Program-made: the position numbers and the translations under genes
The notes under the pieces: generated by a model
The model's database searches: none
What the model was told of the DNA's origin: nothing
Seen by the model: only the letters and a program-made list of their open reading frames with translations
Shown here: positions 1 to 28,498 of the stretch, piece after piece
Layout of the letters: each line of letters opens with the position of its first letter
Position numbering within the stretch: position 1 is the stretch's first letter
Source of the DNA: an uncultured Clostridia bacterium
Lineage (GTDB): Bacteria; Bacillota; Clostridia; UBA1381
DNA: 64,000 nt
NCBI GenBank assembly: GCA_947627795.1
Contig: CANQXJ010000005.1
Location: forward strand, 1 to 64,000
Reading direction: 5' to 3'

Positions 1-2464
1 GATTTTCCTCTTCCCTTTCGGTTCTCGCGATGCTTACCACGTTCACGCCCTCGTCAAGACGCATTACGCGCACGCCTTGAGTCTGTCTGCCGTAGGTGCT
101 TATCTCATCGGAATGTATGCGAATAACCACGCCGTCCGAGGTAATCAGCATTATGTCGTCCTCCGGCGTTACCGCTTTCATTCCGGCGAGCTTGCCGGTT
201 TTCTGCGTTATTTTGTATGTGAATACGCCCTTTCCGCCGCGTGTCTGCGCTCTGTACTCATCGAGAGCAGTTTTCTTGCCGTATCCGTTTTCGGTGACGA
301 TTAGAAGCTCCGAATCCTCCTTCGCGAGGCTCGCGCCTATCACGTAATCGCCATTGCGAAGCCGTATGCCGCGAACGCCGCGCGCAACTCTGCCCATCGC
401 GCGTACCTCCGATTCATTGAAGCGTATCGCGTAGCCGTCGTGTGTCGCTATTATCAGATCCTGCTTGCCGTCGGTCAGCTTTACGCGCATAAGCTCGTCG
501 TCCTCGGCAAGCTCTATCGCGCGCAGACCGCCCGCGCGGATCTTCGCAAAGCTCATTAAATCGGTTTTCTTTACCGTGCCGCTCTTGGTGACGAACATTA
601 GGTATTTGCCTTCCTCAAAGCTGTGGATCGGTATCATTGCCGTGATTTTTTCGTCCTGCTCGAGCGGGAGAAGGTTTACTATCGCCATGCCGCGCGCCTG
701 TCTGCCGGCTTCGGGTATCTGGTAGCCCTTGAGCTTATACACAACGCCGCGGTCTGTGAAGAACAGTATGTTGTCGTGGGTGGACGTTGTGAACAGGTGC
801 TCGGGGAAGTCCTCGTCGCGGGTGGTTATGCCCGTTATGCCGCGTCCGCCGCGTCTTTGGCTGCGGTATGTGTCTACCGGCATACGCTTTACGTAACCGT
901 TGTGCGTTACCGTTACGATCGTTTCTTCCTCGTCTATCAAGTCCTCGTCCTCGAAGTCGTTGACCGCCATAGCTATCTCCGTGCGGCGCTCGTCGCCGTA
1001 CTTTTCCTTTATATCGAGAAGGTCTGTCTTGATTATTTCGAGCACGCGCTCCTCATGGGCGAGAATGTCCTCAAGCTCCGCTATTTTTTCGGTAAGGTCG
1101 CTGTATTCGGTTTCTATTTTCTCACGCTCCATGCCGGATAAACGGCCTAATTGCATCTGCACTATCGCCGTCGCCTGCACGTCGTCGAGGCTGAAGCGCT
1201 CGCAGAGAGCCGCTTTCGCTTCGGGGATGCCGCGCGAGGCGCGTATGATGTGGATAGCTTCGTCTATGTTGTCGATTATCAGTATATAGCCCTCCAAGAT
1301 ATGCGCTCTGTCTTTTGCCTTTGTCAGGTCAAAGTTCGTGCGGCGCTTTATTACGTCCTCCTGGTGGGCGATGTAGTGGTCTATCATTTCGCGCAGATTC
1401 AGTATTTTAGGCTGCTTGTCAACAAGGGCGAGCAAAATTACACCGAATGTGTCCTGCATCTGCGTGAATTTGTAGAGGTTGTTGAGCACTACGTTAGGGT
1501 TCGCGTCGCGCTTTAATTTTATGATAAAATGTATGTTTTCGTCGGATTCGTCGCTCGTGGAGGCTATACCTTCGAGCTTGCCGTCGCGGACGAGGTCGTT
1601 TATATGGCGCTCCATGCGCGCCTTGTTTACCTGATACGGGATCTCGGTGACAACTATGCGGCTCGCGCCGTTCGCGTCCTCCTCTATCTCAGCCTTCGCG
1701 CGGACAATTACTCTGCCGCGTCCTGTGGTATACGCCGCGCGGATACCGCTTCTGCCCATTATCACGCCGCCTGTCGGGAAGTCCGGTCCCTGGATATAGT
1801 TCATAAGCTCGTCGATCGTAATCATCGGATCGTCTATTACCGCGATTATTCCGTCTATTACCTCGCCTAAGTTGTGCGAGGGAATTTTCGTCGCCATACC
1901 GACCGCGATACCGTCCGAGCCGTTTACGAGAAGATTCGGGAAACGCGACGGGAGCACGTCAGGCTCTCTCAGTTTATCGTCGTAGTTCGGTACGAAATCG
2001 ACCGTTTCCTTTTCGATATCCGAAAGCATCAGCGCCGAAAGCTTCGACATTTTCGCCTCGGTATAACGATACGCAGCCGCGCCGTCGCCGTCTATCGAGC
2101 CGAAGTTGCCCTTGCCCTGCACGAGCGGATAACGCAGCGAAAAATCCTGTGCCATACGTACCATCGCGTCATACACGGACGAGTCGCCGTGGGGGTGGTA
2201 CTTACCGAGAACATCGCCGACGGTAGCCGCCGATTTCTTGAAATCGTTCTCATAGAGCAGGTTCGATTCGTACATATCGTAGAGAATACGACGGTGAACC
2301 GGCTTCATGCCGTCGCGCACGTCGGGGAGGGCGCGGGCGACGATAACGCTCATCGCGTAGTCGATATAGGACTTGCGCATTTCCCTGTCTAAGTCGACGT
2401 CGACGATTTTTTGGTTTTCGATTATCGACATATCCAGTTCTTTTTCATTTGACTTCTTTGCCAT
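1..2464 (-). CDS. gyrA: DNA gyrase subunit A (3' end outside the window)
   Basis: Type IIA topoisomerase subunit that breaks and rejoins DNA and, with GyrB, adds negative supercoils. About 821 codons are present and the C-terminal end is missing. Reading from ATG at 2464, I see the quinolone-determining region [10 protein letters not shown] with the usual Ser and Asp at the positions matching E. coli 83 and 87, the active-site Tyr in AAAYRYTE, and the GyrA box QRRGGRG in the C-terminal propeller. The GyrA box separates it from ParC, which normally has no such canonical box. The start is fixed by GGAGG seven bases upstream. A promoter lies at 2513-2541. The gene is downstream of the methyltransferase at 2558 but has its own promoter. 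Confidence 0.97.
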
Positions 2465-2557: not shown

Positions 2558-3295
2558 TTATCGGCATACAAACACTATTCTTTCGGTATTTTTACTCGGT
2601 TTTTCAAAGGTCGGGGCGGCGTATGTGTCAACGTGTTCAAAGCCCGCTTTTTTGAGCAGATACAAAAGCTCCTTTTCCGAGTACGCGCGCTGAAGGTGGC
2701 GCTCCTCGAAACGGCGGTAATTTTCTCCGTCCTTTACGAAAAACGTCAGCATCATGTCCGAGATTTTTTTGTCCTTCAAATATCGGTTCTGCCATGTATA
2801 GAATATATTTCTGTCCGAATGTACGAAGGTGTTGTCCCCTATTACGTTTTCGAGCTTGTGACGGCTGCTTATGTCGAATATGAAAATTCCGTCCGTATCG
2901 AGAAAGCACGTTTTTATGCGCGTGAATATTTTTAAAAGCGATTCGGGTGAGATTATGTAGTTTACGCCGTCTATCATGCACGTAAACGCGCCCATTGTGC
3001 CGTACAAATCGAGATTTTCCATTTTCTGATTGAGAAACAGCACGTCAAGCCCGACAGCTTTTTCACGCGCGATATTTAGCATATCGGGGCTCGCGTCAAC
3101 TCCTGTCATGTTGTAGCCGCGCTTCGCGAGCGGGATCGTCACGTTTCCCGTGCCGCACGCCAAATCGCATACCAATTCGGGATCTACGTTATACATCGCG
3201 AAGATGTTTTCGATATAATCCGCGATTTTTTCATAGTTCACGTCGCGGCGCATTAAACGGTCGTAAATATAGGCGAAATCGGAATAGCTGCTCAT
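2558..3295 (-). CDS. Class I SAM-dependent methyltransferase, small-molecule type
   Basis: Predicted cytoplasmic methyltransferase of 245 residues; the substrate is unknown. The SAM-binding glycine loop is visible as DLACGTGNVTIPLA near residues 43-56, followed by the acidic end of beta-2 (GVDASPDML). The N-terminus (YSDFAYIYDRLM) is typical of the YqeM-like/Methyltransf_25 group in Firmicutes. Its ATG overlaps the stop codon of the TrpR-like gene in an ATGA, so the two are translationally coupled. Nothing in the sequence identifies the acceptor, so I give no gene name. Confidence 0.85.
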   Translation of the reverse strand: MSSYSDFAYIYDRLMRRDVNYEKIADYIENIFAMYNVDPELVCDLACGTGNVTIPLAKRGYNMTGVDASPDMLNIAREKAVGLDVLFLNQKMENLDLYGTMGAFTCMIDGVNYIISPESLLKIFTRIKTCFLDTDGIFIFDISSRHKLENVIGDNTFVHSDRNIFYTWQNRYLKDKKISDMMLTFFVKDGENYRRFEERHLQRAYSEKELLYLLKKAGFEHVDTYAAPTFEKPSKNTERIVFVCR

Positions 3296-24406: not shown

Positions 24407-27388
24407 TTATTCGCCCAAAATCGCGATTTCGCTGATATGGCAGTAATTCTTATCGGGATCTGTCGCGCCGTCGCCGGTGTAGCGTACATACTGCGCCTCA
24501 ACGGTCGATTTGAACATATACTTCTCAAATTCCTCGCTCGTACCGGTGTTCTGCGTTTTAGCAAGAGCCTCGGTCCAATTCTCGCCGTCGGTCGAAACCT
24601 CTATCGTGAACGGATAAATTCTCTCGCTGCCCTTCCACATCGCTATCGAAACGCCCGTTACCTTCTGCACCGAGCCAAGATCAACAACAAGCGTGTTCGG
24701 ACCGAACGCCGACCAGCGCGTTGTCATATCGAGATCAACCGCGCCCGATTCAAGGTTGCCGTCGTTGTCGCTCGCGGTTACGCCGTAAACATCGAGCTGA
24801 TTATCGTAATACTTCTTGCCAACGCCGTTGATAGCGATTTTCTCAACCTTTCCGGGAACGGGAGCCTTCTGTATATTTTCCTTCTGCGCCTTAGCCGCAG
24901 CGTCGCCCATAGTAACGTCGATATCCGAAATCACGATAAGTCCGTCGTTCCAGTAAACCGTCTTGCCAAGAGCCTCAACGAGCGCACGCAGCGGCACGAG
25001 AGTTCTGTCGTCGCGTATTACCGGCGCGGTATCCATTGTTTCGCTCTTTGTATTAGCCACAACACTAACTGTTCCGCTGCCGGGTGTTCCCGCTGTTTTA
25101 CCCTGATAGTCGCCTGTTTCATACGTTGTTTCACCGACTCTCATACCTACGTACTTGCCGTCCTGCGTGAAAACAGTTATCTGCCACTGTGTATCGGGAT
25201 TCCAGTCAACCTCCGCGCCGAACGCCTCCGCGATAAATCTGAGCGGAACAAGCGTGCGGTTGTTTTCGTCAATTATCGGAACAACATCCGTATTGTCGTT
25301 GTCGATTCTTATCGGCTGACCTTTTACGAGCGCCGTAGGCGTGTCAACAACGAGCGTAACGCTCTCACCAAAGTACAAATCGTCAATATCCCATGATTTC
25401 TTCGCTAAATCGGGGTTTTTCTGACCGTTCACGGTAATCTGCGGAACAGGCACGGTTTCCGTGTCATAGCCTAAATAATAGCTCGTATGTGTCGGCTGAT
25501 TATAGCAGGTATTCTGCAGCGCGACATGGTTTCTGTACTGAATATCATGCATCAGCGTCGGCAGCTTATATCCGGTCGGGATAGTCGTCGTGTAAATTCT
25601 AAGCGCGCTGCTGTCCTTTAAGGGATAAATAGTTTCCTCGCGCCAGTCGCCGAACAAATCAGCCGTCAGCGACGGATTCGCCTTCGTGCCGTTTACCGCG
25701 AACGTGCCGCTTGCCGTGAATATCGTGTCGGTTTTCTGCGTGTCGTGGTTCCACTTGCTTATATAAATGCCGTCCTGAACCTCGCGTCCGAGATCGCCGT
25801 CCCACCACGCGAAAAAGTTCGCCGCCATAGTGTATTTGTTCGAGATAACCTCGCCCTTAGCCGTCGTCAATACTCCCGCTGCCGACCAGCCCTCGGCGCC
25901 CGGGTAATTCGGATCAATGTCGTCCGCAGCGCCGCGTCCGTTATCTGTGCCGGTATATGCGCCGTAGAGAATTTCACCGGTACGCGCGTCGCGCATCTCG
26001 TAGCCGTAAGCCGAGCCTGTATCCTCGTGGCAGGAATATACCTCAAGACCCGGTCTTGACGGATCAAGATCGCCCACATGCTGAGCGTCGCCGTGACCGA
26101 GACCTGTCGAATACATCGGCGTGCCGTCATGGTCAACTGCGAGCGAGCCGTAAATAATCTCGTCGCAGCCGTCGTAGTCAACGTCCGCGAGCGACATAGA
26201 GTGGTTGCCCTGACCTATGTACTGATTCTTGTAATCCATTGTATCGAAACGCCACTTTTGCTGCAGCTTTCCGTCCTTTAAATCATAAGCCGCCATAACG
26301 GTTCTGCCTCCCGTCGGGCCCTCCGGTCCCGTGTAGTAGCCGCGGCAAAATACCATGCTCGGTCTCTGTCCGTCGAGATAGCCTATGCCCGCAAGATAAC
26401 GCTCCGAGCGGTTTCCGCCCGAATCGCCCCATGCGGTAATATCCCATGTTGTGCCGTCCGCAGTCTTACCCGTAATCTGCGGATCGTAGTCAACGGTGTC
26501 GATAACGGTTCCGTCCGTGCCCTTGAACACCGTCAGATACAGCGGGCCCTGCAAGTTCTTACCGCCGTTTAAAACAGCCCAGTTTTTATCCGCGTCGCCG
26601 ATAGCCGTACCGTCGCCCGCAATAGTGCCGTCAGCCGTGCGGCAAGCCATTTCGGCTTTGCCATCCATGTCGAAGTCGTAAACCATAAACTGCGTGTCAT
26701 GCGCGCCGGCTCTGATATTCGGACCCATATTAACGCGCCACATACGCGTTCCGTCGAGCTCATACGCGTCGATAATGCACTCTCCGGTATAGCCGAACTG
26801 AGCCGCGTCCTTAGCGTTTGACGGATCCCATTTAAGCACGATTTCGTACTGACCGTCGCCGTCCAAATCAGCCACAGACGCGTCGTTAGCCGAATATGTG
26901 TAGTCCTCACCGTTAACCGTATTCGCCGGAGGAGCCTGGATCGGCACATCGAGATAGCCGTCCGCCCAGACGGAAACCTCGGCGCACTTCTCGCCCTCTT
27001 TTCCGTCAACAACAGGCGCAACCTGATACTTCGCGCCCGAAACGGCGTTAATATCGGTATAATTCGTAACGCTCATCGGCTCGCCGTTTATGAGAGTGCC
27101 GTTTCTGTACAGATTGTACTTCGTGTCCGCCGACTCCGTTCCGAGCCAGCGCCACGAAACGAAAACGCTGTCGCCCGTCTTTACCGCCACAAGACCTCTG
27201 TCAATATTTTCCATAGGTCTTTGAATATCGGGACGCGCGTCGATAAGCTTTTGAGTTTCAGCCGCGCTGTCCTTGCCGTTACCGGTTGACAAATTATCGC
27301 CAATCTCCGCCGCCTGTGAAAACGGAGCGGCGAAGCTCACCATAACGGCAGCCGCAGCCGCGGCGGCAATTAACTTTTTCATCTTCAT
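24407..27388 (-). CDS. Secreted PL11 rhamnogalacturonan lyase with stalk and F5/8C domains
   Basis: Cleaves the Rha-GalA backbone of rhamnogalacturonan-I by beta-elimination. Of 993 residues, 1-27 are a signal peptide (cleavage near SQAAE). About 55-650 form the YesW/PL11 propeller, opening with RPMENIDRGLVAVKT and carrying calcium sites DLDGDGQYE (174-182), DFDMDGKAE (238-246) and DVDYDGCDE (402-410). About 680-822 hold two copper-amine-oxidase-N-like 'stalk' repeats (RTLVPLRFIAEAFG, RTLVPLRALVEALG). About 855-993 form an F5/8-type carbohydrate-binding domain (VVDLGSVQKVTGVSI...AQYVRYTGDG). AAGGAG precedes the start. A promoter is predicted at 27426-27454 and a terminator at 24351. It is a single-gene unit. 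The PL11 assignment is firm; endo or exo mode is not decided. Confidence 0.93.
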   Translation of the reverse strand: MKMKKLIAAAAAAAVMVSFAAPFSQAAEIGDNLSTGNGKDSAAETQKLIDARPDIQRPMENIDRGLVAVKTGDSVFVSWRWLGTESADTKYNLYRNGTLINGEPMSVTNYTDINAVSGAKYQVAPVVDGKEGEKCAEVSVWADGYLDVPIQAPPANTVNGEDYTYSANDASVADLDGDGQYEIVLKWDPSNAKDAAQFGYTGECIIDAYELDGTRMWRVNMGPNIRAGAHDTQFMVYDFDMDGKAEMACRTADGTIAGDGTAIGDADKNWAVLNGGKNLQGPLYLTVFKGTDGTVIDTVDYDPQITGKTADGTTWDITAWGDSGGNRSERYLAGIGYLDGQRPSMVFCRGYYTGPEGPTGGRTVMAAYDLKDGKLQQKWRFDTMDYKNQYIGQGNHSMSLADVDYDGCDEIIYGSLAVDHDGTPMYSTGLGHGDAQHVGDLDPSRPGLEVYSCHEDTGSAYGYEMRDARTGEILYGAYTGTDNGRGAADDIDPNYPGAEGWSAAGVLTTAKGEVISNKYTMAANFFAWWDGDLGREVQDGIYISKWNHDTQKTDTIFTASGTFAVNGTKANPSLTADLFGDWREETIYPLKDSSALRIYTTTIPTGYKLPTLMHDIQYRNHVALQNTCYNQPTHTSYYLGYDTETVPVPQITVNGQKNPDLAKKSWDIDDLYFGESVTLVVDTPTALVKGQPIRIDNDNTDVVPIIDENNRTLVPLRFIAEAFGAEVDWNPDTQWQITVFTQDGKYVGMRVGETTYETGDYQGKTAGTPGSGTVSVVANTKSETMDTAPVIRDDRTLVPLRALVEALGKTVYWNDGLIVISDIDVTMGDAAAKAQKENIQKAPVPGKVEKIAINGVGKKYYDNQLDVYGVTASDNDGNLESGAVDLDMTTRWSAFGPNTLVVDLGSVQKVTGVSIAMWKGSERIYPFTIEVSTDGENWTEALAKTQNTGTSEEFEKYMFKSTVEAQYVRYTGDGATDPDKNYCHISEIAILGE

Positions 27389-28050: not shown

Positions 28051-28269
28051 TTAAAAAACGCTTTTATACTCCCCACCCGGAATCTTTTCCTGAAGCTCCC
28101 TTTGATATTGCATCTCTATCATGTTAAAAGCATCTTTTATTGTACTGTGCATTTTGTCCTCTACGCCTTTAATTGCATAAAACGGCACATCTCTTATGTA
28201 ACGCTTCAAAAAATGCTCCTCGACCTTCATTCGGTAAAAGCTTAACTCGAATTCGCTAAAATCCTGCAT
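28051..28269 (-). CDS. Hypothetical 72-residue protein behind a structured leader
   Basis: Not recognised. From ATG 28269, with AAAGGAGG at good distance, it reads MQDFSEFELSFYRMKVEEHF and ends in IPGGEYKSVF. It is helical and charged, with aromatic residues but no membrane segment, Cys cluster or obvious DNA-binding motif. A longer frame opens at 28320, but it would begin inside the tandem repeat and ignores the good ribosome site. A promoter at 28470-28498 and a 194-nt leader capable of a three-way junction precede it. No clear terminator follows before the rpsU promoter. It may be a regulator or phage-derived protein; I cannot say which. Confidence 0.6.
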   Translation of the reverse strand: MQDFSEFELSFYRMKVEEHFLKRYIRDVPFYAIKGVEDKMHSTIKDAFNMIEMQYQRELQEKIPGGEYKSVF

Positions 28270-28463
28270 TGTCTGTTCCTCCTTTGATTTTCGCACTAAA
28301 AAATGCGCAGCCTCTTTCAAGACTACGCACTAAAAAACGCAGCCTTGATTTTTTTGAAATGTTGCTACGCATTCAAATGTCTAAAAATATATAAGAGCAC
28401 GAATCAAAGCGTGCGCCTTTTAACAAGCGCAAACTCTTATATATTTTAAATTGAATTCGTAGC
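28270..28463 (-). ncRNA. Predicted structured leader RNA or small RNA, unassigned class
   Basis: The predicted transcript start (28463) is the first base of a long stem. Outer pairs are 28458-28463 with 28364-28369, then 28451-28456 with 28371-28376, then a 14-bp stem 28434-28447 with 28384-28397. Inside are two hairpins, 28413-28430 and 28397-28414, which share a few bases. Downstream, 28318-28347 folds into a 10-bp stem that contains two G-U pairs in the minus-strand RNA. These would be A-C mismatches in a plus-strand RNA, which argues for minus-strand transcription. A second, similar hairpin lies just before the Shine-Dalgarno site. No match to a riboswitch class I know. Confidence 0.55.
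28292..28345 (-). repeat. Two-copy tandem repeat in the leader
   Basis: Two units about 34 bp apart: cgcactaaaaaatgcgcag at 28292-28310 and cgcactaaaaaacgcag at 28326-28342, each followed by cct. In the minus-strand RNA each unit forms a hairpin with a U-rich loop. The second unit runs into the ribosome binding site of the 72-residue ORF. Confidence 0.65.
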
Positions 28464-28469
28464 ATTTAT

Positions 28470-28498
28470 ACTATATCATAAAAATAACAAAATGTAAA
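28470..28498 (-). promoter_or_regulatory. Predicted promoter of the structured leader
   Basis: Minus-strand TTTACA (28493-28498), 17 bp, TATAGT (28470-28475) with TGA before the -10. The predicted start, seven bases on, coincides with the foot of the long stem. Confidence 0.6.

Follow-up and report, generated by a model that had tools for sequence, protein, structure and literature searches.

We found that the region in front of a small gene on the minus strand of the window (the whole 64,000-nt stretch of an uncultured Clostridia genome that was analysed) is very likely an orphan, riboswitch-like, cis-acting transcription attenuator from an uncatalogued family; this reading was reached with no transcript, probing or ligand data. 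Judging from the comparison of 93 non-redundant members, the putative stems P1a and P1b, the antiterminator and a long-range pseudoknot S:S′ are maintained through compensating changes. Up to 21 copies of the element per genome were observed in gut-associated Clostridia, before many genes for secreted or surface proteins (leucine-rich-repeat, SLH, CHAP, RCC1, copper-amine-oxidase-N), and the covariation data lead to a two-state model that names the strands involved (Table 1) and can be tested. The initial annotation of the locus missed the family, the pseudoknot and the mutual exclusivity of terminator and antiterminator.

Table 1. Features of the promoter, leader and gene, in the order of transcription
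Feature	Coordinates	Strand	Basis
Promoter: −35 TTTACA (28498-28493), 17-bp spacer, −10 TATAGT (28475-28470)	28470..28498	-	Sequence
A1, 5′ strand of P1a (GCTACG)	28458..28463	-	Complement of B1; compensated across members
5′ arm of P1b, variable in sequence	28434..28443	-	P1b complementarity, z −41
P2 hairpin, UUAAAA at loop end	28412..28431	-	Leader fold and P1b/P2 comparison; AAAA in 85/93 members
S, sensor strand CGCUUUGAUU, unpaired in P1 conformer	28402..28411	-	Complement of S′, covarying
3′ arm of P1b	28388..28397	-	Leader fold, P1b comparison
B1, 3′ strand of P1a (GCGTAGC)	28364..28370	-	RNAalifold, permutation test of pairing
S′A2 (AATCAAGGCTGCG), 5′ arm of antiterminator; alternatively S′ with S, A2 with B1	28338..28350	-	RNAalifold, permutation test, sequence
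First U-run, adjoining A2	28332..28337	-	At least 5 U in 88/93 members
B2 (28330-28321) with extension, GTGCGTAGTCTTGA; 3′ arm of antiterminator and 5′ arm of terminator	28317..28330	-	RNAalifold, permutation test, sequence
A3 (GGCTGCGCAT) with U-run, 3′ arm of intrinsic terminator	28298..28312	-	RNAalifold, sequence
Shine-Dalgarno AAAGGAGG	28278..28285	-	Sequence
Downstream (regulated) gene, 72 codons, function unknown	28051..28269	-	ORF; profile and homologue searches

It had been proposed that the first transcribed base is also the first of a long stem, and the sequence bears this out: the sigma-70-type promoter predicts that the minus-strand RNA begins at 28463, with the G of GCTACG that opens the basal stem, 194 nt ahead of the 72-aa gene, and the stem pairs as had been claimed. 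A −10-like box is present upstream of A1 in related elements too. The predicted fold of the 204-nt leader has an energy of −62.5 kcal/mol (z −4.5), which none of the 200 dinucleotide shuffles equalled. The gene upstream of the unit is thiI. From their sequences, thiI appears to have its own terminator and rpsU, the gene downstream, its own promoter; since these signals are apparently separate, we infer that the leader and the 72-aa gene form what looks to be a monocistronic unit. For the 72-aa protein we observed only a weak similarity to YugN, below the cut-off, with no match in NCBIfam or PHROGs and no homologues in the 69 other genomes of the window's family; as no function is known, the protein gives no hint of the signal.

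A set of 135 elements was reduced to 93 non-redundant members (core identity of at most 85%). Because the position of A1 was fixed by the −10 box together with a loose five-base pattern, and that of S by the P2 hairpin, the partners tested were mostly not picked by complementarity. Duplex energies of each element's own partners were compared with those of permuted partners. For the 93 members the z-scores were −18 for A1:B1 (P1a), −15.5 for the antiterminator and −13 for S:S′, while P1b reached −41 (92 elements), a value so strong because every element has an individual P1b sequence. The scores were not corrected for relatedness among members; wrong-partner controls with S, ranging from −3.2 to +2.2, give a rough floor for this effect. 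Still, the control A1:B2 reached −6.5, so that the −6.2 obtained for B1:A2 is no proof by itself and is only suggestive of the putative pairing. RNAalifold, applied to 23 members, independently arrived at both B1:A2 and the terminator; compensating changes were seen at A:U, C:G, G:U and G:C.

Compensation in the predicted S:S′ helix can be seen in strand pairs such as CUUUGAUU/AAUCAAAG, CUUUGACA/UGUCAAAG (L009), CUUUGGUU/AACCAAAG (L040), CUUUGUUUC/GAAACAAAG (L128) and, as read off the sequence, CUUCGAU/AUCGAAG (L133). Sequence conservation extends to part of the sensor as well, since both AAAA in the P2 loop (85 of the 93 members versus 9.8 in shuffles) and TCATA in the junction (31 of 93 versus 2.3) exceed the shuffles. 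A 5′ leader conserved through covariation, one of the features by which a riboswitch is recognized, is present. The initial annotation had described a three-way junction enclosing two hairpins; the stem and P2 stand, but the small second hairpin, which has 3 bp when this one sequence is folded, shows no conservation, and its stretch is strand S, which pairs downstream.

Two further hairpins, one at 28318-28347 and one before the ribosome site, had been taken for a two-copy repeat. Both are real; instead of a repeat, however, they are an antiterminator (28350-28317) and a terminator (28330-28298) that exclude each other, as the B2 strand 28330-28321 is common to both. B2 would pair either with S′A2 upstream (−17.2 kcal/mol) or with A3 downstream (−17.1 kcal/mol), and the competing hairpins, isoenergetic in the window, are both conserved across members according to RNAalifold and the permutation test. 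Alternative structures sharing B2 supply the second feature expected of a riboswitch, an expression platform. Comparison of sequences demonstrates the stems, the complementarity of S and S′ and the exclusivity of antiterminator and terminator; that the pseudoknot is the off state is inferred.

In the model that we propose, the RNA would start at P1a, and P1a together with P1b would bear P2, strand S and a short junction at the tip. S′ would be contested by S and B2. In the off state the S:S′ pseudoknot would prevent the antiterminator, B2:A3 would form and RNA polymerase would halt at the U-run; in the on state S would be held by the signal or remain unpaired, and the S′-A2:B2 antiterminator would block the terminator and let the gene be transcribed. 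A second rearrangement, in which B1 quits A1 for A2, may stabilise the off state. As B1:A2 crosses S:S′ and S′ adjoins A2, we infer that the two helices could stack as an H-type pseudoknot when the switch is off; such stacking would explain why the length of P1b is free to vary, again as an inference.

We infer, with no ligand-binding data, that the balance between the two states is set by a small ligand, not by a protein or trans-RNA. A fuller proposal, which we advance tentatively as it may well prove wrong, is that the hundreds of members, spread over at least 10 Clostridia families, make up a new class of riboswitch; it would respond to an unknown signal and govern, in gut bacteria, a regulon that comprises secreted and surface proteins, and its H-type pseudoknot (S:S′ with B1:A2) would swap with P1 and the antiterminator. 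Wide variation in P1 length (26-91 nt from P2 to B1 across members) counts against a riboswitch-like attenuator, being unusual for a compact ligand pocket, yet would be tolerable for a hairpin-binding protein. It is possible, if on the whole unlikely, that an RNA-binding protein acting in trans, an antiterminator or terminator like BglG or the ANTAR proteins, sets the balance by binding P2 and the junction. Two points favour such a protein, namely how little is conserved (P2 loop, S and junction) and the mixed functions of the downstream genes, but no partner gene has been identified. The NusG paralogue LoaP is disfavoured in this role, and LoaP-dependent antitermination is unlikely: the paralogue would have to be present, and NusG was single-copy in 87 of the 88 genomes with a match.

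A ligand-driven attenuator would be close to the pseudoknot riboswitches with a terminator platform. Shared with them are the 5′ leader, a conserved sensor part, a strand common to antiterminator and terminator, a pseudoknot strand competing with the antiterminator, and the occurrence of many copies per genome, some in tandem. Unlike them, the element has no Rfam match, no known ligand and a very long P1 of unconstrained sequence, and the genes downstream encode mainly secreted proteins, not metabolic enzymes. The order of pairing also resembles attenuators of the trp type (1:2 and 3:4 versus 2:3), as the strands A1, B1, A2, B2 and A3 would pair 1:2 and 3:4 or else 2:3 and 4:5; in contrast to that type, an extra pseudoknot strand S is present and a conserved leader peptide is lacking. 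An attenuator working through a leader peptide was rejected, as a Shine-Dalgarno sequence with ATG occurs inside just 8 of 93 leaders and no short ORF is conserved.

There is good support for the suggestion that the structure regulates the small gene in cis: this locus and most of 139 elements share one order of parts, from promoter through sensor domain, antiterminator/terminator and Shine-Dalgarno to the gene. In 112 of the 139 a gene bearing a Shine-Dalgarno sequence lies within 300 nt, at a median of 39 nt past the terminator. The other suggestion, an independent small RNA, has weakened against these counts. A terminated transcript of roughly 166 nt acting in trans would have a promoter and terminator of its own, and 27 of the 139 elements lack a clear Shine-Dalgarno gene within 300 nt, which, like the limitation of the TCATA junction motif to 31 of 93 members, is also counter-evidence to the attenuator reading; but the gene behind most elements, and a conserved antiterminator that a small RNA would not need, make the independent RNA improbable.

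Signal-peptide-like starts were seen in 72 of the 85 downstream proteins that reach 100 aa (85%), compared with 57 of 361 (16%) other ORFs of the same loci (Fisher p 8e-34); the calls were made by a simple hydrophobicity rule, with no trained predictor. Pfam domains in 90 downstream proteins include LRR_5 (18), Cu_amine_oxidN1 (6), SLH (6), CHAP (5) and RCC1 (3), and small cytosolic and SLOG-like proteins are likewise found downstream. If the element senses one signal, these genes would form a regulon for surface change in uncultured bacteria, and its ligand would become tractable.

Genomes were searched with a covariance model, R1, built from the 3′ half of the leader only. In the window's family 53 of 70 genomes matched, with about 309 matches (summed from the table) and up to 21 per genome; in the order, 61 of 95 genomes; in the class, 53 of 391 genomes at E 1e-5, from at least 10 families besides the window's own. 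Of the 299 genomes in a phylum-wide sample, R1 matched just that of the window and none of the 298 others, a result that doubles as a specificity control for R1. Carriers include uncultured Monoglobus, Clostridia MAGs (many from one rabbit-gut 'Lapin' isolate series) and Lachnospiraceae bacterium MD329. A match in Cyclobacteriaceae (L062) was discarded as a chance pattern match to which the covariance model gave no score. Lack of homologues with compensating changes would have refuted the initial annotation; the covariance search of Clostridia genomes returned hundreds of them.

That the leader fits no known riboswitch class agrees with our searches, in which no Rfam 15 family matched it: at the gathering threshold the whole window and 18 diverged members gave tRNAs only, and in a permissive search of the leader all matches were far below threshold. 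No description of the element was found in the literature searched, although supplementary tables and many journals were outside the reach of this search, and the element could be present, without a name, in a large RNA screen of the human microbiome (PMC8040213). We regard the family, uncatalogued in Rfam 15, as a new one, and the system as of an already known kind.

Relatives in the window's own genome precede unrelated genes, namely one for a 41-aa protein, which has a divergent surface-protein gene as its partner, one for a LytTR regulator and one for an SLH-like protein. Insertion sequences are known to carry mobile attenuators, with similar terminators before unrelated genes (PMC2965389), and the present element has similar terminators before unrelated genes as well. 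Many copies per genome in such positions, some in tandem, would be expected if remnant transposon ends or a MITE had spread before genes. However, the copies of the window's genome are only 55–65% identical over the full element (50% when shuffled), not the near-identical set that a recent mobile repeat would leave, while orthologues within the genus are 83–85% identical, each to its own counterpart. The copies within one genome are old, and differ from insertion-sequence attenuators in being kept vertically, in their individual, compensated P1b stems and in the strong bias to genes of secreted proteins. No match to the element was found in viral contigs (searched with the exact pattern) or in phage and plasmid collections. 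A mobile attenuator is thus very improbable.

Known c-di-GMP riboswitch targets in Clostridia are often surface proteins, as are products of the genes downstream of the element, but a c-di-GMP switch of a novel type is so unlikely that we give it almost no credence: carriers should synthesise the signal, and no GGDEF match was obtained in several genomes that carry multiple copies, of which some are incomplete, namely G043, G022 and G004 (8–9 copies; 81–86% complete) and G064, G063 and G073 (2–3 copies; 93–98% complete).

Several arrangements of the attenuator and its genes recur. In L007, from the window's own genome, two elements lie back to back, at 1278-1500 (-) before the 41-aa gene and at about 1590-1880 (+) before the surface-protein gene, and the pair is kept in the same genus (L028). 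Two or three tandem copies precede one gene in L034, L038, L059, L065, L069, L079, L083, L110, L132, L137 and L156. A protein of 41-59 aa with the motif YKEMYxxLF.. recurs behind the element in several genera (L007 1064-1186, L028, L048, L057, L152, L156) and has no Pfam, NCBIfam or PHROG family; another, of 77-86 aa with an HDF end, recurs in L040 (1586-1843), L099 and L019, and a Pfam search with the L040 protein found no family. SLOG-like (YpsA/DUF1273-like) proteins stand behind the element in other families (L016, L061, L135, L136). In L078 an ORF for an IS200-like transposase (2942-3163) lies directly behind the element and was possibly inserted into the leader unit. In the window itself, positions 24407-27388 (-) encode a family-11 rhamnogalacturonan lyase that is secreted; Pfam assigns it copper-amine-oxidase-N and F5/8C domains, and the enzyme suggests that pectin is degraded.
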